A DNA stretch of 43,290 nucleotides from Meiothermus luteus (GCF_003574085.1 NZ_QWKZ01000011.1:1-43290), one strand, 5' to 3'; counted from the first letter of the stretch, positions 16,870 through 26,713 are shown. Program-made: numbers and translations. The notes: generated by a model not told the origin, from the letters alone.

Positions 16870-17234
16870 AGCGGAGATACCGGCTTCGGCCTGCCGTCTG
16901 GCCCCAGGGCCACCATCACAAAACCGGCCCGGCAGGCCAAGCGACGTTCCTCGCGCTCTATGGGCTCCACCCACATCTCCACCTCGAGCCGCAGCGAGCT
17001 CCTGCCCACCTCTTTGACCCAGGCCACCAGCTCCACGATGGAGCCCTGCGGCACCGGGTGGCGGAAGTCCATGGCGTCGGCGTGCACCGTGACCACCTTG
17101 GCCCGGGCATGCCGGGTGGCAGCCACGAAGGCTGCCTCGTCCATCCAGGCCATGGCCGTACCACCAAAGAGGCTGCCGTAATGGTTGCAGTCACCCGGGC
17201 GCACCAGGTGCACGGTGCGGGTTTCGTTCCTCAT
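16866..17234 (-). CDS. Acyl-CoA thioesterase, hotdog fold
   Basis: A 122-residue single hotdog-domain thioesterase of the cytosolic acyl-CoA hydrolase (YciA/BACH-like) group. Recognisable parts are VRPGDCNHYGSLFGGTAMAWMDEAAF, with the Asn and Asp near the active site, and the ADAMDFRHPVPQGSIVELVAWV strand region. The ATG at 17234 overlaps the nrdF stop (ATGA), so it is the last gene of the nrdI-nrdE-metE-nrdF operon and should fall under the same riboswitch control. A longer open frame to 17357 lies inside nrdF and is not used. Its link to nucleotide or methionine metabolism is unclear. Confidence 0.85.
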   Translation of the reverse strand: MRNETRTVHLVRPGDCNHYGSLFGGTAMAWMDEAAFVAATRHARAKVVTVHADAMDFRHPVPQGSIVELVAWVKEVGRSSLRLEVEMWVEPIEREERRLACRAGFVMVALGPDGRPKPVSPL

Positions 17235-18523
17235 GCCTCCCCCCGCCGAGCCCGCGTGCGGGCCTCGCGGTAGAGGATGTAGGCCCGGGCCACCTCCGGG
17301 TAGGTGGCCATCAGCCCCTCCTCCACCAGGTCTTGAATCTCTTCCACCGAGAGGCACTTTGCTTCCGCCCTTCGCTTGATGGGCTCCACCACACCCCGCG
17401 CAATCCGCTCGGGTTCCACCGTCACCCCCGCGGCGGCCGCAGCCTTTCCCACCGCCCGTACGATGCGCATCTCGTCAAAGGGCACCTCTCGACCATCCCG
17501 CTTCCGCACCGGCTTCAGGTCAGGGCCCCCCTCCGGAAAGTAAAAATCCAGGTCCGAGAGGGGCTCCACCCGGGTAGCCTTAATGTAGCCGTTGCCCTTG
17601 GTGGAAAAGAAGTCGTGGTGCTTGGTCTCGGTGCGCAGCCCGGCCAGCACCACTGGGTTCACCTCTTCAGGCTCCACCCCAAAGTGGGGCTCCATCCCCA
17701 GGTTCATCAGGGCCTTGTCGGCGTTGTAGCGGGAGAAGCGCAGCACCGCCTCCTCCAGGCCAATGGGAGCGTAGAGGGCCTTTGTGTAGCGGGCCTCCAG
17801 GGCATCCAACCGCTCTAGAAGTCCTATTACCTCCCCCTGAGCCCTCTTCCGCCCCACCTCCCCCATTCCCGCAGCCCGCTCCTGGGCCAGAAGACCCACG
17901 TACACCCCGTGAACCGCCTCGTCGCGGATGATCAGGCTGATGATCTCCCCCGAGTTCACCAGCCGCCCCCCTCCGGCCAGGTAGAGGGGGTAGAAGAAGC
18001 CCGAGTAGAAAAGGTAAGACTCCAGCAAAACGCTCGCGGCCATGGCCCGGTAGAGGGTGGCCCCGTCCCGGATACCCGTGTAGGCCTCGTGGATCAAGGC
18101 CAGCTTGGCCTGCAGCTCAGGCTGCTCCCTTACCCAGGTGAAAAGCTCCTCGATTCGCTCCGAGGTGCACAGCGTGGAGAAGATCGAGCTGTAGCTCTTG
18201 GCGTGCATGTGCTCCATGGCCCCCATGAACGAGAGCACCGCCTTGGCCTGGAGCCCTTCCACCCACTGGGATATCCGGGGCATGCCCACGCCTCCTTGCA
18301 GGGTGTCCAGCAAGGTGAGCCCAGCCAGCACCTCCTCGTAGGCCCGTTTTTCCTCCGGGGCCAGGGTCATCCAGGAGAGCTTATCGTCGGCCAGAGGGAT
18401 TTCCTCGTCCACCCAGAACTGCCGCACGTTCTGGTCCCAGAACATCTTGGTGTAGGCGTCCTCGGGACGATTCCAGTTAACCGCGCTGAAAGGGCCTTGG
18501 GAGGTAGAAAGCATCTCGTTCAT
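17231..18523 (-). CDS. nrdF: Class Ib ribonucleotide reductase beta subunit with C-terminal ATP-cone
   Basis: A 430-residue radical-generating subunit. The ferritin-like domain has all expected metal ligands (D73, E104, H107, E168, E202, H205) and the radical tyrosine Y111 in EHMHAKSYSSIFSTL, a class Ib pattern. Presence of nrdI in the operon agrees and implies a dimanganese-tyrosyl cofactor. The alpha-docking tail (FFSTKGNGYIK to SDLDFYF, about 305-329) is normally the end of NrdF. Here it is followed by about 90 residues (337-425) that read as an ATP-cone: LKPVRKRDGREVPFD, then EMRIVRAVGKAA, LSVEEIQDLVEEGLM and EVARAYILYREAR. ATP-cones normally sit at the N-terminus of the alpha subunit, where they bind ATP/dATP and set overall activity. 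The start ATG overlaps the metE stop. Confidence 0.93.
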   Translation of the reverse strand: MNEMLSTSQGPFSAVNWNRPEDAYTKMFWDQNVRQFWVDEEIPLADDKLSWMTLAPEEKRAYEEVLAGLTLLDTLQGGVGMPRISQWVEGLQAKAVLSFMGAMEHMHAKSYSSIFSTLCTSERIEELFTWVREQPELQAKLALIHEAYTGIRDGATLYRAMAASVLLESYLFYSGFFYPLYLAGGGRLVNSGEIISLIIRDEAVHGVYVGLLAQERAAGMGEVGRKRAQGEVIGLLERLDALEARYTKALYAPIGLEEAVLRFSRYNADKALMNLGMEPHFGVEPEEVNPVVLAGLRTETKHHDFFSTKGNGYIKATRVEPLSDLDFYFPEGGPDLKPVRKRDGREVPFDEMRIVRAVGKAAAAAGVTVEPERIARGVVEPIKRRAEAKCLSVEEIQDLVEEGLMATYPEVARAYILYREARTRARRGEA

Positions 18524-20835
18524 AAGGACTCCTGCGGATTAGGGCGGGATTCCGACTGCTTCCGGAGGTGCTGGGCAGCCTCAACGAGGTTGGCCAGAGC
18601 TGGCTTAACCTCCTCCCATTTGCGGGTTTTTAGGCCGCAATCGGGGTTGACCCAGATCTGATCGGGAGCCAGGTGCTTTTGGGCCTTCTCCAAAAGCTCC
18701 ACCAGCTCAGCCACAGAGGGCACCCGCGGGGAGTGGATGTCGTAAATCCCCGGGCCAATCTGGTTGGGATATCGGTAAGAGATGAAGGCCTCGAGCAACT
18801 CCATTTTTGAGCGCGAAGCTTCGATGGAGATGACGTCGGCGTCCATATCGCCGATGAATTGGATGATGTCGTTGAACTCGGAGTAACACATATGGGTATG
18901 AACCTGGGTCTCATCGGCCACCCCCGAAGCGCAAAGCCGGAAGCACTCCACCGCCCAGGCCAGGTAGCCATCCCACTCCGCCCGGCGCAGCGGCAGGCCC
19001 TCCCGCAGGGCTGGCTCGTCAATCTGAATGATGCGAATCCCGGCTCGCTCGAGGTCGGCCACCTCATCCCGAAGAGCCAGGGCGATCTGGCGGCAAACCT
19101 GCTCACGCGGAAGGTCATCGCGCACAAACGACCATTGCAGCATGGTCACGGGCCCGGTCAGCATGCCCTTCACCGGCTTTGAGGTGAGGGACTGGGCGTA
19201 GGTCGCCCACTCGAGGGTCATTGGGCGAGGGCGCGAGACATCGCCAAAGAGAATCGGGGGGCGAACGCAGCGTGAGCCGTAGCTCTGGACCCAACCGTGC
19301 TGGGTAAAGGCATAGCCGCAGAGCTGCTCGGCGAAATACTGCACCATATCATTGCGCTCAAACTCCCCGTGGACGAGGACGTCCAGGCCAATCTCCTCCT
19401 GCCAGCGCACCGCTTCTTCCACCTTGCTTTTGAGGAAGTCCGTATAGTCGGCGGCGCTCAGCTCACCTTTAGAGAAAGCGGCCCGGGCTTTGCGCACCTC
19501 GCCGGTCTGGGGGAAAGAGCCGATGGTGGTGGTCGGGAAAAGGGGCAACCCAAGGTGGGTCTGTTGGGCCTCGCGCCGCACTGGAAAAGGGCTTTTGCGG
19601 CGGGTCATCTCGGGCGTGATCCGCGCTAGGCGCTCTTGCACCCGAGGGTCGTGAATTTTGGGCGAGCTGCGGCGCGCGGCTACCGCTGCCGCCGAGGCAG
19701 CCAGCTCGTCTTTTGCCGCCCCTCGTCCCTGGTTGAGGGCCCGGCCCAGAACCGAGAGCTCTTCCAGCTTCTGCACCGCAAAGGCCAGCCAGCCCTTTAG
19801 CTCCGGGTCAAGGGCGGTCTCTAGCGAGAGATCTATCGGCACGTGCAGCAAGGAGCAAGAAGGAGCGAGAATCACCTTGTCTTCTCCTCGTGCTTCAACC
19901 ACCGGCTCGATCCAATCCAAAATGGCCGGCAGGTCTGCCCGCCAGACGTTGCGCCCATCGATCACCCCAAGCGAGAGGGTGAGTTCTGCCGGGGCCTTCT
20001 GCGTGACTAGATCGAGTTCCCCTGGGGCGCGCACCAAATCAAGGTGCATCCCAGCTACCGGCAGCGAAAGCGCGAGCTCGAGGTTATCCCCATAACCGCC
20101 AAAATAGTTGGTCAGGAGAAGGTTTAGCCCCGGCACCGCCTCAGCCAAAGCTGTGTAAGCCTTGCGGAACGCGCCTTGGCTGGCCTCATCGAGGTCGAGC
20201 GAGAGCACCGGTTCGTCCATCTGTACCCACTTGGCGCCGTGGCTGTGCAATCGGCGCAGCACCTCGGCGTAGACCGGTAGAAGGCGCTCGAGCCAATCGA
20301 GGGGGTTCAGGGCCTTGTCCTTGCTTTTGGCAAGCTTGAGGTAGGTCACCGGCCCCAGCAACACCGGTCGGGTCTCGTAGCCCAAAGCTTTAGCCTCCAG
20401 GTACTCGTCAATGGGCTTGGTGGAGGCTAACTGGAAGACTTGGTCCGGCTCGAGTTCCGGCACCATGTAGTGGTAGTTGGTGTCGAACCACTTGGTCATC
20501 TCGAGCGCGGGCAGGCCCATGCTTCCGCTGCCACGGGCCATGGCGAAGTAGAGCTCGAGCGAAACCTCCGCGCCTTTCCACCCATAAACCGCCGGGATCG
20601 CACCGACCATGACGCTGGTATCGAGCACATGGTCATAAAGGGAGAAGTCGTTGCTAGGAATGTGGGTGATGCCCAAAGCGTGTTGCTTGGCCCAGTTGGC
20701 CCTGCGCAAGCCCCGCGCAACTTCCAGCAAGGTAGCCGCAGAGGCTTTGCCCGACCAAAAATCTTCCAAGGCGAACTTGAGTTCCCGTTTGGCTCCAATC
20801 CTTGGAAAGCCCAAACTGCCAACAGAAACAGGCAC
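18520..20835 (-). CDS. metE: Cobalamin-independent methionine synthase
   Basis: A 771-residue MetE that transfers the methyl group from 5-methyltetrahydropteroyl-triglutamate to homocysteine without B12. The N-terminal domain begins SLGFPRIGAKRELKFALEDFW. The C-terminal catalytic domain has zinc ligands at H648 and C650 (HTHMCYSEF), E672 (SIEAS) and C733 (NPDCGLKTR), the same spacing as in E. coli MetE. The start is GTG at 20835, seven bases after AAAGGAG; the longer open frame upstream overlaps nrdE and lacks homology. It lies 35 bases after nrdE and overlaps nrdF by four bases, so it splits the two RNR subunit genes. By eye its codon use is a little less GC-rich than its neighbours, which may hint at separate acquisition. 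Confidence 0.95.
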   Translation of the reverse strand: MPVSVGSLGFPRIGAKRELKFALEDFWSGKASAATLLEVARGLRRANWAKQHALGITHIPSNDFSLYDHVLDTSVMVGAIPAVYGWKGAEVSLELYFAMARGSGSMGLPALEMTKWFDTNYHYMVPELEPDQVFQLASTKPIDEYLEAKALGYETRPVLLGPVTYLKLAKSKDKALNPLDWLERLLPVYAEVLRRLHSHGAKWVQMDEPVLSLDLDEASQGAFRKAYTALAEAVPGLNLLLTNYFGGYGDNLELALSLPVAGMHLDLVRAPGELDLVTQKAPAELTLSLGVIDGRNVWRADLPAILDWIEPVVEARGEDKVILAPSCSLLHVPIDLSLETALDPELKGWLAFAVQKLEELSVLGRALNQGRGAAKDELAASAAAVAARRSSPKIHDPRVQERLARITPEMTRRKSPFPVRREAQQTHLGLPLFPTTTIGSFPQTGEVRKARAAFSKGELSAADYTDFLKSKVEEAVRWQEEIGLDVLVHGEFERNDMVQYFAEQLCGYAFTQHGWVQSYGSRCVRPPILFGDVSRPRPMTLEWATYAQSLTSKPVKGMLTGPVTMLQWSFVRDDLPREQVCRQIALALRDEVADLERAGIRIIQIDEPALREGLPLRRAEWDGYLAWAVECFRLCASGVADETQVHTHMCYSEFNDIIQFIGDMDADVISIEASRSKMELLEAFISYRYPNQIGPGIYDIHSPRVPSVAELVELLEKAQKHLAPDQIWVNPDCGLKTRKWEEVKPALANLVEAAQHLRKQSESRPNPQESL

Positions 20836-20870
20836 AACCGCTCCTTTCAGTCTAGCCTCAAAACACCCCA

Positions 20871-22949
20871 TCACACCGCGCAGCTCAGGCACTCCTCCAC
20901 GGAGAGGTTCTTGGTACGGGTGTAGTAGAGGCTTTTGAGGCCCTTCTTCCAAGCGTAAACGTAAAGCCGGGCCAGCTCGCGGGTGCTGGTCTCGCTGGTC
21001 ACGTAGAGCACCGTGCTGATGCCTTGGTCCACATGGGGCTGAATCTCGGCCACCAAGTCTATGAGGCGGTACATGTTCATGTGGTAGGCCGACTTGTAGT
21101 ACCAGTAGGTCTCCTCGGAGAGAAAGGGCACCGGGTAGTAGGTGGTGGCGTTGCCGTAGGTGCGGGTCTCCACCACGTCCACGATCGGGGCGATGGAGGG
21201 GGTGGCGTTTTGGATGTAGCTGATGCTGGCTGTAGGGGCAATCGCCAAGCGGTAGGCGTGATAGAGTCCGTGCCGTGCCACTTCGGCCTTTAGCCTCGCC
21301 CAGTCGGCAGGGGTGGGCAGGGCAATCCCCTCAAAAAGCCACCGCACAGCTTCGGTCCGCGGGCGGAAATCCTCCTCCAAGTAGGGCTCAAAGTAGGCCC
21401 CGGTGGCGTAGTCCGACTGGGCAAACCCTTCAAAGGTCACCCCACGCTCGCGGGCAATTCCCATGGAGCGCTCTAGGGAATAAAAGTTCACCGCAGCAAA
21501 AAAACTGCGGGCAAAGTCGCGGGCCTCCTCCGACTCGTAACGGATGCGGTTTTTGGCCAGGTAACCGTGCAGGTTCATGGCCCCCAGGCCCACCGAGTGG
21601 AAGGCCTGGTTGGCCCGACGCACCCCGGGAGCGTTCCTCACATCCGAGAGGTCGCTTACCGCGGTGAGCATGTCCATGGCGATGTGCACGCTTTCCCTCA
21701 ACTTCCCCGACTCCATCACGTTCACGATGTTGAGTGAGCCCAGGTTGCAGCTGATGTCGTAGCCAATCTGATCGCCCTCACCGTAGTCGCCGATGGTGGA
21801 GGTGGTCTGGAGCTGGAAGATCTCGGTGCAGAGGTTGGACATCTTTATCTGCCCAAGGCGCTTGAGCGGGTGGGCCCGGTTGGCGTTGGTCTTGTAGACG
21901 ATGTAGGGATAGCCAGACTCAAACTGGGTCTGGGCGATGCGGGTGAGCATCGCCCGAGCCGAGAGGGGACGCTTCTTCACCGCGGGGTGGGCCAAGAGCT
22001 CCTCATAGCGCTGGTCAATATCCATGTCGTCCAGGTGCTCCCCAAAAGCCTGGTAGACCGAGTAGGGGGCAAAGACGTAGAAGTCCTCCCCTCGCTCGGC
22101 CAGCTCAAAGAACTTGGAGGGCACCACCAGGCCCAACGAGAGGGTCTGGATACGGCTTTTTTCGTCGGCGTTGATTTTCTTGGTGTCCAAGAACTCCTCC
22201 ACATCCCAGTGGAAGATGTTGAGGTAGACCGCCCCGGCCCCCTTGCGCTGGCCCATCTGGTCGGCGTAGTTGAAGGCGTCCTCAAAGAGCTTCATCACCG
22301 GGACCACCCCCTTGGCCGCGTGGGCCACCCCCTTGATGGCCTCACCCCGGGCCCGCAGTTTGGAGAGGTTGATGGCCACCCCCCCGCCGATTTTGGAAAG
22401 CTGCATGGCGGTATTGAGGGTGTAGCCAATGGAGTTCAAGGAATCGTCCAACTCCAGGAGAAAACAGCTAACCAGCTCGCCGCGTCGGGCACGCCCGGCG
22501 TTCAGGAAGGTAGGGGTGGCAGGCTGGTAGCGCCCCTCCATAAGGGCCCGCACGTAGGCCCGAGCCCGTTCCACATTTCCCTGGGCCAGGTGCAGCGCCA
22601 CCGCCAAAACGCGGTCCTCATAACGCTCGAGGTACTGCCTTTTGTCGTTGGACTTGAGGGCATAGTCCTTGTAGAACTTGGAGATGGCCATGAAGCTCGG
22701 AAAGCGGAAGCCGTAGCTGTAGGCCAGGTCAGAGAGCTCGAGCAGATCCTCCTCGCGGTAAAGCCGGAAGAAGTCCTCGTAGTAACCCTCGGCGATAAGG
22801 GCTCGCAGGCGCTCAATGGGCCCGGGGAAAGGCCTTAGCCGCTTCTCAACCTCCTCCTCAAAGGCCCGAGCAGCCTCGAGGTCCTTCTCGAGCTGAAAAA
22901 AGCCGTTCTTCTTCTGGAGAATGGCGCTGTTGAGTTCAAGGTAACGCAT
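20871..22949 (-). CDS. nrdE: Class Ib ribonucleotide reductase alpha subunit
   Basis: A 692-residue catalytic subunit that reduces ribonucleoside diphosphates to deoxyribonucleotides. It lacks an N-terminal ATP-cone: the protein starts MRYLELNSAILQKKNG and goes directly into the barrel domain, as in class Ib. Active-site residues are N372, C374 and E376 in SNLCTEIFQ, with the redox cysteines C162 (VSCFLLEL) and C401 (ISCNLGSLN), and the C-terminal shuttle pair C687/C690 in ECLSCAV. The ATG at 22949 is preceded by GAGGAGGAAC, which lies within the last codons of nrdI; the two genes overlap by 14 bases. No nrdH is present, so the external reductant is encoded elsewhere. Confidence 0.95.
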   Translation of the reverse strand: MRYLELNSAILQKKNGFFQLEKDLEAARAFEEEVEKRLRPFPGPIERLRALIAEGYYEDFFRLYREEDLLELSDLAYSYGFRFPSFMAISKFYKDYALKSNDKRQYLERYEDRVLAVALHLAQGNVERARAYVRALMEGRYQPATPTFLNAGRARRGELVSCFLLELDDSLNSIGYTLNTAMQLSKIGGGVAINLSKLRARGEAIKGVAHAAKGVVPVMKLFEDAFNYADQMGQRKGAGAVYLNIFHWDVEEFLDTKKINADEKSRIQTLSLGLVVPSKFFELAERGEDFYVFAPYSVYQAFGEHLDDMDIDQRYEELLAHPAVKKRPLSARAMLTRIAQTQFESGYPYIVYKTNANRAHPLKRLGQIKMSNLCTEIFQLQTTSTIGDYGEGDQIGYDISCNLGSLNIVNVMESGKLRESVHIAMDMLTAVSDLSDVRNAPGVRRANQAFHSVGLGAMNLHGYLAKNRIRYESEEARDFARSFFAAVNFYSLERSMGIARERGVTFEGFAQSDYATGAYFEPYLEEDFRPRTEAVRWLFEGIALPTPADWARLKAEVARHGLYHAYRLAIAPTASISYIQNATPSIAPIVDVVETRTYGNATTYYPVPFLSEETYWYYKSAYHMNMYRLIDLVAEIQPHVDQGISTVLYVTSETSTRELARLYVYAWKKGLKSLYYTRTKNLSVEECLSCAV

Positions 22950-23313
22950 GTTCCTCCTCTTTGAGTTGGGCCACCGCCGCGAGAAAGCGCAGGCGGTCCC
23001 CCTCTGTGCCTGATAGTTCAAACTTGTGCAGGATAGGCAGCCCATACCGCAGGGCCAGAAGGTCTGCCGCGCGGGCAAAGTTCAACCCCCAGTTGCGGTT
23101 CCCGCTGGCCGCCACACCTCTTATGAAGGGCCGGTTCCGCTCCACGAAGCGCTCCACCTCCGGGGGCACCTGGCCAAACCCGGTGGTGTAGGTCACCAGC
23201 ACACAGGGCTCCTCCACCCCCTCCCCTCCGTCCAGAATCCGCCTTCTGGGCAGGGGAAGGCGCTCCGCGAAGCGGGCCACATTCCCGGTTTTGGAAGCGT
23301 AGACCACCAGCAC
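22936..23313 (-). CDS. nrdI: NrdI flavodoxin, class Ib RNR activation factor
   Basis: A 125-residue flavodoxin-like protein that supplies oxidant for assembling the dimanganese-tyrosyl radical of NrdF. Features are the FMN phosphate loop YASKTGNVARF near residue 5, the TYTTGFGQVPPEVERF segment and the NrdI-specific ASGNRNWGLNFARAADLL. The start is GTG at 23313 behind a perfect TTAGGAGG; the open frame continues upstream into the leader but without homology. It is the first gene after the cobalamin riboswitch and its terminator, so its translation begins about 107 bases past the terminator. Confidence 0.93.
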   Translation of the reverse strand: MLVVYASKTGNVARFAERLPLPRRRILDGGEGVEEPCVLVTYTTGFGQVPPEVERFVERNRPFIRGVAASGNRNWGLNFARAADLLALRYGLPILHKFELSGTEGDRLRFLAAVAQLKEEEHALP

Positions 23314-23419: not shown

Positions 23420-23438
23420 AAAAAGGCGGTATCCGCCG
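23420..23438 (-). terminator. Riboswitch expression platform: intrinsic terminator
   Basis: On the minus strand GGCGGATACCGCC forms a five-base stem (GGCGG/CCGCC) with a three-base loop and is followed directly by TTTTT. It lies a few bases after the 3' side of the riboswitch P1 stem and before nrdI. Ligand binding is expected to favour this terminator. Confidence 0.8.
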
Positions 23439-23445
23439 TTCTCTA

Positions 23446-23601
23446 GGTTTTCTGGGAAGCGCTCACCTTAGCCATCCTTTCCGTCCTTGACGCGAGGACT
23501 AGGAGACCCAGCCGGGCAGGTAATCGGGCTTTCACCGTTGCGCGACAGCGGCGGAATTGCACCGCACTTCCCCTGTCACCGGTGGGGAAACCACATCTTG
23601 T
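23446..23601 (-). ncRNA. Cobalamin riboswitch controlling nrdI-nrdE-metE-nrdF
   Basis: On the minus strand the leader holds the conserved cobalamin riboswitch core. It has a GGGGAAGTGCGGTGCAA segment with a matching CCGC hairpin, the CTGTCGCGCAACGGTGAAAG segment, and the B12 box AGCCCGATTACCTGCC at 23530-23515. A GTCCTCGCGTCAAGGAC hairpin follows, and closing bases GGTTTC/GAAAACC can form P1. The order and spacing match Rfam-type cobalamin aptamers. The transcript would start near 23609. An intrinsic terminator follows at once, giving transcription attenuation. The genes below it encode the B12-independent RNR and methionine synthase, so B12 (probably adenosylcobalamin) should repress them. 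This is a sequence match by eye, not a covariance-model hit. Confidence 0.9.
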
Positions 23602-23634
23602 GGTTTCTGGCCGAAAGACTACTACATGTTGTGT
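23588..23634 (-). promoter_or_regulatory. Pair of NrdR-like boxes at the nrdI promoter
   Basis: Box 1 (23619-23634, minus ACACAACATGTAGTAG) and box 2 (23588-23603, minus CCACAAGATGTGGTTT) start exactly 31 bp apart, the usual spacing for tandem NrdR boxes. Against the consensus acaCwAtATmTwGtgt, box 1 fails clearly only at positions 7, 15 and 16 (position 10 is G). Box 1 lies between -35 and -10. Box 2 lies at about +6 to +21 and overlaps the first hairpin of the leader RNA. Confidence 0.75.
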
Positions 23635-23645
23635 TTTTCTGTCAA
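23616..23645 (-). promoter_or_regulatory. Promoter of nrdI-nrdE-metE-nrdF operon
   Basis: The -35 TTGACA (23645-23640) is a perfect consensus hexamer and the -10 TAGTCT (23621-23616) lies 18 bases away. Transcription should start near 23609, directly upstream of the riboswitch. The spacer is occupied by an NrdR-like box. Confidence 0.75.
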
Positions 23646-23663
23646 GGCGGCCCTCGTTTCTAG

Positions 23664-23700
23664 AAACCGCCCCTGACCGGGTTTTCCCGCTCAGGGGCGG
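23664..23700 (-). terminator. Terminator of nrdJ
   Basis: On the minus strand CCGCCCCTGA and TCAGGGGCGG form a perfect ten-base stem around a 14-base loop and are followed by TTTCT. It begins 16 bases after the nrdJ stop and ends 19 bases before the -35 of the next operon, so the two RNR operons are insulated. Confidence 0.82.
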
Positions 23701-23715
23701 CCTAGGGCTCGAGCC

Positions 23716-26613
23716 CTACCCACACTTGCTGTACCCGCAGCTATAGCACTTCACACACCCCTCCTCCCGCACCAAGGTGGCCTCACCGCACTCTGGGCAG
23801 GGGGAGCCGGGTTTGGACGGAGGGGTCAGGGCCCGCTGCATGGCCTGGGGTACCAGCTCCTCCCCATTAATCCCCGGAAGGGAAACCTTCCCGCTGGTTT
23901 CCAGCGCCACCGCAATCAGGTCGGCCTTGCTGGTCACAAAGCGGCCCTGGTAGCTGCCGTACAGCCCCCCGTTGATGCCCCGCAGGGTCCGGACCAGCTC
24001 GGCCGGGGGCACCCCATACTGCAAGGCCTTGGAGATGATGCGGCCTAGGGCCTCGCTGTCGGCGTTGGCCTCGTCCCCCGCCTTACCCGAGGTGAGGATG
24101 ACCTCCACCGGATGCTCGCCCTGCATGTTCACCGTCACCAAGAAGCTACGGCGGGTACCGTCGGCAGCGGTGAGCTTGACCATATCGGTATAGCCCACCA
24201 ACCGCCCGGTGCGCTCAAAGACGGGCCGGGCCGGGGCCGGCGCGGGGGGCACCTCGAGCAGCCCGGGTTGGACCGCCACGGTCTTCTCCGCGGGCTTTTC
24301 TATGGGCTTCTCCTCCTTGCTCACCGAGAGTACCTGGAACTCCCTCGAGCCGTCCCGGTATACGGTAATTCCCTTGCACCCCGTGCGGTAGGCCTCCGTG
24401 TAGGCGGCCTCCACGTCCTCCACCGTGGCCTCATGGGGCAGGTTGATGGTTTTTGAGAGGGAGTTTGCGGCGTACCCCTCGGCGTCGAAGGCAGTCTGGA
24501 CCACCCCTTGCATCCGCACATGGTCCAAGGGCGAGACATCGTGGGCACACTGGAAGACCTTCCGGATGGGTTCGGGCACAAAGGTCAGGCCCTGCACCGA
24601 ACCCCGCCCGTCCTTCTGGATTTCCTCTACAACCCTCTCCCAGTCCCACTTTCCGCCCTTCTCATAGCCGGGGGCCGGGGGGTAGGCCTCCATAAGCTCT
24701 ACAAAAAGAGGGTGGAGAAGAGGCTTGTATTCTCCTCCAATCCGGCGCCAGACGAAGGGGCTGAAAACCGGCTCAATGCCGCTGCTAACCCCCATCAGCA
24801 TGCTCGTGGTACCGGTAGGGGCCACGGTGAGGAGGGCCACGTTGCGGCGGGGGCGGACGCCCAAGGAGCGGAAGTATTCCTCGCGCTCAGCGTAGAGAGG
24901 GAAAACCCCTCGCTCCTCACCGAGCCCCTCCGAGGCCGCAATGGCTTCCTCCCGCAGGGCATTCATCACCTGGGCCACCACCCGCCTCGCCTCGGGGGAG
25001 GAATAGGGCAAACCCAGTTTGATGAGCATATCGGCCAGGCCCATGACCCCTAGGCCCAGCCGGCGCAGCTCCTGGCTGGCCTTCCGGTTGTCCTCCAGAG
25101 CGAAGACGTTCACGTCTAGAACGTTGTCCAAAAACCGCACCGCGGTCCGGATGTCCTTACGGAACTCCTCCATCTGGAAGGTCCCGTCTTTGACATAGGC
25201 GGCCAGGTTCAAGGCTCCGAGGTCGCAGGGCTCGCCCACGGTGAGCGGAATTTCACCACATGGGTTAGTGGAACGTATCTGGTAGCGCTCCCCCAACCCC
25301 TTCAGGGCCGAAAGGGCGTTGACCCGGTCCACGAAGATGAGCCCCGGCTCCCCCGTGGCCCAGGCGTGCCAGGCGATCTCGTGCCAAAGCCAGCGGGCCG
25401 GCACCTTGCCCCCGTAAAGCGGGATGGGGCGGGCCCCATCCGAGGGGCGTTCTGGCAAGTCGGGGAGCTTGCCGGTGTAGGCCCCTTGAACAGGGTAGGG
25501 GTAGTACTTACCCGACACCTCAGCCGGCTCCACCGCCCAAAGCCCATCGGCCTGCAAGGCCTGCCAGAAGGCCTCGGTAACTAGGATGGAAATGTTAAAG
25601 GTAGAGATGTCGCCCTCGGCGGCCTCGCGGTCCAGGTCCTTGGCGGTGAGGAAGTCTAGGAGGTCGGGGTGGTCAATGGAGAGGGTGGCCATGCCAGCGC
25701 CGCGGCGGCTCCCCCCCTGCCGCACCACCCGGAGCACGGGGGCGTAGACGTAGCGTAGTGTCGCCACCGGCCCCGCCTTCTCCGCCCCCAGGTTGGCCCA
25801 CTCCAGGAAGTTGTCAAAAATCTCCACCAAAAAGCTTACGGGCCCGCTGCTGGTACCCCCTGAGCCCCGGATGGGAGCCCCTTCAGGCCGAAGGGCGCTG
25901 AAGTCCACGTGGGGCTCCTGGCCCCTTACCGCCAGGCTCGAGGCAGCCTGGGCGCTCTCAATGATGCCTCGCATATCGTCGGGGATGACCAAGGCTTCGG
26001 CGGGCTTCTCCCGCACCGTCATCACCCCGTGGCGGCGGGCCAAAGCGGCCAGCTCAGGGGACAAAAGGCCGTAGACCACCCGGGTCCAGTTGCGCACGGT
26101 AATGGGTTCCTTCTGCCCATCGGGGTTGATGGGGGGGCGCATCAGCCCCCTGATGAAGTCTTCCACATCCGGGTGGGCGGCGCTGATGTAGGCGAACCCC
26201 CGTACGGTGCCGCGGGAGCCGGCATTCCTCCGAGAGACGTAGGGGTCCAGGTTCACCCCGTTGCCCCCTCCTACCTTGGTGACCAGGGCCAGTTTAGTGG
26301 CCACCTCCATAATCCCTTCAAAGCTGCTGGGGTCGTGCGCGGTGGCCCCTTGCACAAAGCAATTGAGCACGTTGCCGTGCTGGGTGCCGGCCCCGGCCAG
26401 CACCCGCCCCCCTGGGCAAAAGCGCTTGGAGGCCATCAAGCGGTAGAATTCCTCCGCCCAATAGACCCTTTTCTCCTCCTTCTCCGGCAAGGCCACCCAA
26501 TTGGCTACCCGCCGGAACATCCCGAAGATATCCCCATCCTCGGGCTGCATGTACTGGCGCTTGGCGATGGAACGGGCGTGGTCGTCAAAAGCGGCCGGCT
26601 GGAAACTGCCCAT
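23716..26613 (-). CDS. nrdJ: Class II (adenosylcobalamin-dependent) ribonucleotide reductase
   Basis: A 965-residue single-chain RNR that generates its thiyl radical with adenosylcobalamin and works with or without oxygen. Recognised parts are the N-terminal FCPGGRVLAGAGTQHGNVLNCFV, KVGGGNGVNLD, the RRGAGMATLSIDHPDLLDF segment, the active-site C452 in NPCGEIPLTVGEPCDLGALN, and SKTINLPHEATVEDV. The C-terminal 250 residues hold a linker, a TSCPD-type domain (MQGEHPVEVILTSGKAGDEANADSEAL), and a zinc ribbon with four cysteine positions (CPECGEATL and CVKCYSCGYSKCG) that also supply the redox-active cysteines. No N-terminal ATP-cone is seen. The ATG at 26613 follows GGAGGACCT. It is not preceded by a riboswitch, as expected for the B12-using enzyme. 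Confidence 0.95.
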   Translation of the reverse strand: MGSFQPAAFDDHARSIAKRQYMQPEDGDIFGMFRRVANWVALPEKEEKRVYWAEEFYRLMASKRFCPGGRVLAGAGTQHGNVLNCFVQGATAHDPSSFEGIMEVATKLALVTKVGGGNGVNLDPYVSRRNAGSRGTVRGFAYISAAHPDVEDFIRGLMRPPINPDGQKEPITVRNWTRVVYGLLSPELAALARRHGVMTVREKPAEALVIPDDMRGIIESAQAASSLAVRGQEPHVDFSALRPEGAPIRGSGGTSSGPVSFLVEIFDNFLEWANLGAEKAGPVATLRYVYAPVLRVVRQGGSRRGAGMATLSIDHPDLLDFLTAKDLDREAAEGDISTFNISILVTEAFWQALQADGLWAVEPAEVSGKYYPYPVQGAYTGKLPDLPERPSDGARPIPLYGGKVPARWLWHEIAWHAWATGEPGLIFVDRVNALSALKGLGERYQIRSTNPCGEIPLTVGEPCDLGALNLAAYVKDGTFQMEEFRKDIRTAVRFLDNVLDVNVFALEDNRKASQELRRLGLGVMGLADMLIKLGLPYSSPEARRVVAQVMNALREEAIAASEGLGEERGVFPLYAEREEYFRSLGVRPRRNVALLTVAPTGTTSMLMGVSSGIEPVFSPFVWRRIGGEYKPLLHPLFVELMEAYPPAPGYEKGGKWDWERVVEEIQKDGRGSVQGLTFVPEPIRKVFQCAHDVSPLDHVRMQGVVQTAFDAEGYAANSLSKTINLPHEATVEDVEAAYTEAYRTGCKGITVYRDGSREFQVLSVSKEEKPIEKPAEKTVAVQPGLLEVPPAPAPARPVFERTGRLVGYTDMVKLTAADGTRRSFLVTVNMQGEHPVEVILTSGKAGDEANADSEALGRIISKALQYGVPPAELVRTLRGINGGLYGSYQGRFVTSKADLIAVALETSGKVSLPGINGEELVPQAMQRALTPPSKPGSPCPECGEATLVREEGCVKCYSCGYSKCG

Positions 26614-26656
26614 AGGTCCTCCGATAACTCCAGAACACAACCCCCATCGGCTGTCC

Positions 26657-26703
26657 AATCAATATATGGGGGATTTCGGGCAAGATGCTACTACATATTG
26701 TAG
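26657..26703 (-). promoter_or_regulatory. Pair of NrdR-like boxes at the nrdJ promoter
   Basis: Box 1 (26688-26703, minus CTACAATATGTAGTAG) matches the core of the NrdR consensus except at position 10. Box 2 (26657-26672, minus CCCCCATATATTGATT) matches nine of the eleven core positions. They start exactly 31 bp apart. Relative to the -10 hexamer they occupy the same places as the boxes at nrdI. Confidence 0.75.
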
Positions 26704-26713
26704 CTCACGGCAA
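26685..26713 (-). promoter_or_regulatory. nrdJ promoter
   Basis: TTGCCG (26713-26708) and TAGCAT (26690-26685) are separated by 17 bases. The start of transcription would be near 26678, giving a 65-base leader. The spacer contains NrdR-like box 1. Confidence 0.65.

Follow-up and report, generated by a model that had tools for sequence, protein, structure and literature searches.

Candidate NrdR operators at both ribonucleotide reductase promoters of Meiothermus luteus, one of them overlapping an RNA hairpin ahead of a B12 riboswitch

The stretch of DNA studied here (the window, 43,290 nucleotides of the heat-loving Meiothermus luteus, GCF_003574085.1, NZ_QWKZ01000011.1:1-43290) encodes two ribonucleotide reductases (RNRs): the adenosylcobalamin-dependent class II enzyme NrdJ, and a class Ib enzyme specified by the operon nrdI-nrdE-metE-nrdF, whose leader contains a match to a B12 riboswitch. 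Upstream of both nrdJ and nrdI lies a pair of sites resembling the boxes of the regulator NrdR. We consider it very likely that the window holds two bona fide NrdR operators, one at nrdJ and one at nrdI, together with a B12 riboswitch acting on the nrdI operon, and that the second box at nrdI is shared with an RNA hairpin. The two promoter-proximal genes and the four boxes are as follows.

23716..26613, minus strand: nrdJ, adenosylcobalamin-dependent class II RNR (TIGR02504, 610 bits; ATG at 26613 after GGAGGA)
22936..23313, minus strand: nrdI, class Ib assembly flavoprotein (TIGR00333, 103.8 bits, cut-off 74.65; likely GTG start after AGGAGG)
26688..26703, minus strand: nrdJ NrdR box 1, CTACAATATGTAGTAG (19.4 bits; -35/-10 spacer plus the first -10 bases)
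26657..26672, minus strand: nrdJ NrdR box 2, CCCCCATATATTGATT (11.2 bits; about +6 to +21 of the predicted transcript)
23619..23634, minus strand: nrdI NrdR box 1, ACACAACATGTAGTAG (19.8 bits, the best site of the window)
23588..23603, minus strand: nrdI NrdR box 2, CCACAAGATGTGGTTT (11.9 bits; overlaps the RNA hairpin)

All four boxes are 16 bp long and lie on the minus strand. A first-pass annotation had placed their starts at 26657 and 26688 (nrdJ) and at 23588 and 23619 (nrdI), with 31 bp between the boxes of each pair; these positions and offsets are exact, and the spacer is 15 bp at nrdI and nrdJ alike, within the 14-17 bp (about three helical turns) typical of NrdR box pairs. The scan with an NrdR weight matrix that the annotation had proposed was carried out on both strands of the 43-kb window (86,550 positions), using a matrix derived from only six E. 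coli boxes taken from oligonucleotide probes with measured NrdR binding (PMC12176259). The top four sites of the window are these four boxes, the next-ranked site scoring 10.2 bits, and at an offset of 31 the pair scores come to 31.6 and 30.7. Every box matches the core pattern C.[AT].A[AT].[AT].G (PMC12051234). A regular expression published with a survey covering every GTDB species (PMC12051234) matches exactly the nrdI and nrdJ loci in the window; simulated windows yield 0.33 matches each (0.08 at offset 31). An IUPAC pair pattern allowing up to 2 mismatches was run over all 224 contigs of the genome (2.87 Mb). At 0-1 mismatches the nrdI and nrdJ loci alone were found, so that the NrdR regulon visible by this pair test consists of nrdJ and nrdI; the locus of nrdR itself showed no box pair in the same search. 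A pair match with two mismatches (G000:C171) was set aside as background, being no better than the reversed-pattern control.

The regulator gene, which the annotation had suggested looking for, is present as a single copy in the genome (Zn-ribbon PF22811, 81.4 bits). Its product of 170 amino acids has two CxxC motifs as well as Asp15 and Arg17, and nrdR was detected in 105 of 111 genomes of the class. Asp15 and Arg17 are DNA contacts of NrdR in Streptomyces coelicolor and the apparent source of its sequence specificity (PMC9110341). It has been reported that NrdR tetramers loaded with ATP and dATP occupy the two boxes, putting a kink in the DNA and limiting the access of polymerase (PMC9110341).

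The boxes overlap the predicted promoters, whose elements are given below.

26708..26713, minus strand: predicted nrdJ -35, TTGCCG (TTGCCA/TTGTCA-like in most relatives)
26685..26690, minus strand: predicted nrdJ -10, TAGCAT (17-bp spacer; TAGNNT in 16/16 nrdJ promoters)
23640..23645, minus strand: predicted nrdI -35, TTGACA (read from the sequence; TNGACA-like in relatives)
23616..23621, minus strand: predicted nrdI -10, TAGTCT (18-bp spacer; TAKNNT in 18/18 nrdI promoters)

Read along the minus strand, the nrdI promoter runs TTGACA-GAAAA-ACACAACATGTAGTAG-TCTTTCGGCCAGAAA-CCACAAGATGTGGTTT and the nrdJ promoter TTGCCG-TGAG-CTACAATATGTAGTAG-CATCTTGCCCGAAAT-CCCCCATATATTGATT. At both, box 1 occupies the -35/-10 spacer, as had been proposed, and additionally covers the first three bases of the -10 element. 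The proposed position of box 2 at about +6 to +21 holds if transcription starts 8 nt beyond the -10 element. A strict sigma-70 scan (9 of 12 matches) called neither promoter, and the promoter assignment therefore rests on conservation. The overlap of the right half of box 1 with the -10 element is what would favor a likeness produced by chance or by the promoter itself (a common GTAGTAG -10 region and AT-rich spacers), with NrdR uninvolved. We regard this as extremely improbable, since the pair is unique in the genome, the second boxes are conserved although they lie outside the promoter elements, the spacing is exact and nrdR is intact.

Conservation among relatives was followed at both promoters. 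The box pair is present at exactly 31 bp in 18 of 18 nrdI loci (that of M. luteus included) and at 31 or 32 bp in nearly every nrdJ promoter, the larger offset being found in L034 and L037. Across the 45 tallied nrdI and nrdJ promoters, C4 and G13 are kept in 90/90 boxes (180/180 positions), including all 18 nrdI loci and all 16 Meiothermaceae nrdJ promoters. It has been shown in S. coelicolor that inverting the G-C pairs (positions 4/13) of one box lowers NrdR binding about 50-fold (PMC9110341). For box 1 of nrdI and for the two nrdJ boxes of the Meiothermaceae, the best axis of symmetry is that of NrdR. With nrdR present and with boxes, phase and promoter overlap conserved, NrdR control of both RNR classes, as first proposed, is strongly supported at the level of sequence. 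The identical geometry of the two promoters had been taken as a further sign of co-regulation; it adds nothing beyond the boxes, because a 15-16-bp spacer is the NrdR rule for most bacteria (PMC12051234, PMC9110341) and a common 31-bp phase is therefore expected.

Paenibacillus sabuli, a distant species, has a 31-bp NrdR box pair (L062:1093-1133) upstream of an nrdI whose product is 58% identical to the NrdI of the window. One genome (G023) has two nrdI-region copies on one contig, L018 (G023:C2:35817) and L020 (G023:C2:233329), with equal match scores and identical promoter box sequences. A third NrdR-like 31-bp pair in G023 and G024 (L054:1966-2006) was rejected as probably due to chance or coding; in G023 it lies inside an open reading frame (ORF) of 173 amino acids without a Pfam match, between genes for a dynamin-like GTPase and an AMP-binding enzyme.

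Paired boxes had been claimed for both promoters, and all four are indeed present; box 2 of nrdI, however, departs from the usual form and shares its bases with a conserved RNA hairpin placed directly ahead of the riboswitch aptamer.

23587..23607, minus strand: 5'-terminal RNA hairpin GAAACCACA-AGA-TGTGGTTTC (predicted +2 to +22; contains nrdI box 2)
23510..23584, minus strand: AdoCbl-II (B12) riboswitch aptamer in the nrdI leader (RF01689, 43.1 bits, gathering 36.5)

The hairpin ends 2 nt from the aptamer match and lies outside the Rfam RF01689 match. Its folding energy is -11.2 kcal/mol (z -4.4), with 0 shuffles equally stable, and a hairpin of 9-11 bp enclosing box 2 is found at the predicted mRNA 5' end in 18/18 nrdI loci. 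When box 2 is compared over these 18 loci, complementarity reaches 97% if the axis is set 1.5 bp upstream of that of the NrdR dyad, but only 43% if the NrdR axis itself is used. Compensatory changes occur at 4 of the 9 core hairpin pairs (in M. rufus, G031, and in G023 and G025), and three species have G-U pairs in the stem; about the NrdR dyad of box 2 no double change was seen in the 18 loci. The covariation is good but not overwhelming evidence, as the independent changes are few. Stem pairs inside the NrdR box are mostly frozen (4/5 invariant), whereas 3/4 of those outside it covary, as one would expect if selection acted on a DNA site and an RNA stem at once. Loop bases 1 and 3 are an invariant A, matching the NrdR core requirement. 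A search of the M. luteus genome allowing up to 3 mismatches found no second copy of the hairpin. Near-copies stand at nrdI in nrdI-bearing genomes, and nrdI-free genomes have none, bar isolated 3-mismatch matches in a few. As a control, the other B12 riboswitches of the genus were inspected: none has this hairpin abutting the aptamer, and one has an unrelated hairpin (L082).

These data bear on two alternatives. According to one, nrdJ alone has a full NrdR operator, while nrdI box 1 is a single box, its "box 2" is purely a hairpin of the riboswitch leader and the 31 bp are set by the start site. The displaced axis of complementarity, the covariation, all of which follows the hairpin and none the NrdR dyad, and a break of consensus at position 12 are as this explanation predicts. 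We nevertheless consider it unlikely: nrdI box 2 scores on a par with nrdJ box 2 (11.9 vs 11.2 bits), its C4 and G13 are invariant in all 18 loci, the stem pairs are frozen inside the box and not outside it, and the two loop A residues are needed by the NrdR core but not obviously by a hairpin. It has also been reported that E. coli NrdR binds nrdAB tightly despite a non-canonical box 2 (PMC12176259). The second alternative, that the palindrome is the DNA operator of another regulator (a 21-bp inverted repeat) and no RNA hairpin is formed, is less likely still. The near-perfect inverted repeat is of protein-operator size and located at the start site, yet its outer arms keep complementarity rather than sequence (TGT/ACA for AAA/TTT in M. 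rufus; also G025 and G023), G-U wobbles occur, and the near-copies are essentially confined to nrdI. We lean towards a third view, in which about 20 bp are under double selection, as an NrdR half-operator in DNA and as a 5'-terminal hairpin in the RNA before the riboswitch. Such a hairpin may influence how the riboswitch folds or how long the message lasts; most likely, though this is a guess, it shields the 5' end or stops it from pairing with the aptamer. No description of a dual-coded box and hairpin of this kind was found in the accessible parts of the literature, in a search limited to open-access papers.

The riboswitch precedes a four-gene operon, of which the remaining genes and a possible terminator are listed here.

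20871..23078, minus strand: nrdE, class Ib catalytic subunit (TIGR04170, 1038.8 bits; coordinates are those of the ORF)
18520..20952, minus strand: metE, B12-independent methionine synthase, between nrdE and nrdF (TIGR01371, 1134 bits; coordinates are those of the ORF)
17231..18523, minus strand: nrdF with a C-terminal ATP-cone (TIGR04171, 433 bits; Pfam ATP-cone at residues 339-423)
23425..23437, minus strand: possible intrinsic terminator of the riboswitch, GGCGGATACCGCC-TTTTT (tentative; shuffles yield 0.7 such sites)

Within the window the AdoCbl-II riboswitch match is found in the nrdI leader and not at nrdJ, and B12 riboswitch matches above the gathering score occur at 18/18 distinct nrdI loci, this one included. 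The first-pass statement that the riboswitch controls class Ib only agrees with these matches as far as the two reductase operons are concerned, but because it precedes nrdI-nrdE-metE-nrdF, methionine synthesis would be covered along with class Ib. A metH match is located elsewhere in the genome. Among the loci compared, metE was found inside the nrd operon here and in the metagenome-assembled genome (MAG) of Meiothermus sp. SKYB64 (L057) only; it is not in the operon in M. hypogaeus, M. taiwanensis, an uncultured Meiothermus MAG and M. rufus (L058-L061). It is probably a recent insertion, which brought two B12-independent isozymes under one B12 riboswitch. The ATP-cone on the radical subunit NrdF is a rare placement of this allosteric domain; an NrdF with a C-terminal ATP-cone is reported from a few Meiothermus species only (PMC5794259). 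It implies that dATP may act on class Ib at the enzyme level as well as at the promoter.

The nrdJ loci of relatives, among them L038, L057 and many others, show open frames of 1,400-2,300 amino acids with split matches, which suggests inteins in these NrdJ proteins. No intein-like insertion was seen in the NrdJ of the window.

Several points weigh against the reading of two NrdR operators and a riboswitch with a shared hairpin. The start sites are predictions. Conservation of box 1 could partly be promoter conservation, because its right half overlaps the -10 element. The second boxes of nrdI and nrdJ reach 11-12 bits, compared with 16-21 for the E. coli boxes from which the matrix was made, and position 12 of nrdI box 2 is G instead of the consensus A/T in 17/18 loci. 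The predicted terminator weakly suggests transcriptional control by the riboswitch in this genome, but it was not seen in the nearest relative, and the mode of the riboswitch is uncertain for both reasons.

NrdR control of both RNR classes is already known from Streptomyces and Propionibacterium acnes, where the B12-independent class additionally has a B12 riboswitch. In the S. coelicolor regulon (nrdRJ, nrdABS), both the class II genes and the B12-independent class I operon carry a 31-bp box pair, and nrdABS is likewise preceded by a B12 riboswitch (PMC9110341, PMC4991794). The class I enzyme there is class Ia and nrdR is co-transcribed with nrdJ; in M. luteus the enzyme is class Ib, NrdF has a C-terminal ATP-cone, metE is in the operon, nrdR is at another locus that lacks a box pair, and a conserved RNA hairpin includes box 2 of nrdI. 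In P. (Cutibacterium) acnes, where nrdRJ, nrdAB and nrdDG have been studied, nrd-boxes are present at the nrdRJ and nrdAB promoters and a cobalamin riboswitch at nrdAB, but a single box was called at nrdAB and no hairpin is reported in the available account (PMC3848588). The E. coli operators (nrdHIEF, nrdDG, nrdAB) are similar in their 16-bp boxes, 15-bp spacing, promoter overlap and tolerance of one non-canonical box; they differ in that neither a riboswitch nor an overlapping RNA hairpin is described for them in the part available (PMC12176259). The nrdI-leader aptamer scores above the gathering score of RF01689, as a regular AdoCbl-II riboswitch does, but it is distinguished by the conserved 5' hairpin ahead of it, which was not seen in the same form at the remaining B12 riboswitches of the genus.

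The following scheme may be envisaged. When dATP accumulates, NrdR tetramers loaded with ATP and dATP would bridge the two boxes of each promoter, which lie three helical turns apart, and the bound protein would keep RNA polymerase off both nrdJ (class II) and the nrdI-nrdE-metE-nrdF operon (class Ib and MetE). Plentiful adenosylcobalamin would act through the leader riboswitch to lower expression of the nrdI-nrdE-metE-nrdF operon only. The cell would thus rely on B12-dependent NrdJ (and MetH) when B12 is available, and on the class Ib RNR (and MetE) when it is not. At nrdI, box 2 would serve twice, as an NrdR half-operator in DNA and as a 5' hairpin of 9-11 bp in RNA.

If these predictions are correct, M. 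luteus offers a clean example, within the Thermaceae, of an NrdR regulon with two promoters. Class Ib RNR may be hit twice by dATP, at transcription through NrdR and at the enzyme through the ATP-cone of NrdF, and the operon content suggests that B12 chooses between isozymes in two pathways together, those of RNR and methionine synthase. DNA-level control by dATP via NrdR and RNA-level control by B12 would be physically merged at nrdI if the double selection on box 2 is real, and an operator half-site overlapping a covarying RNA hairpin would offer a testable case of dual-coded regulatory DNA.

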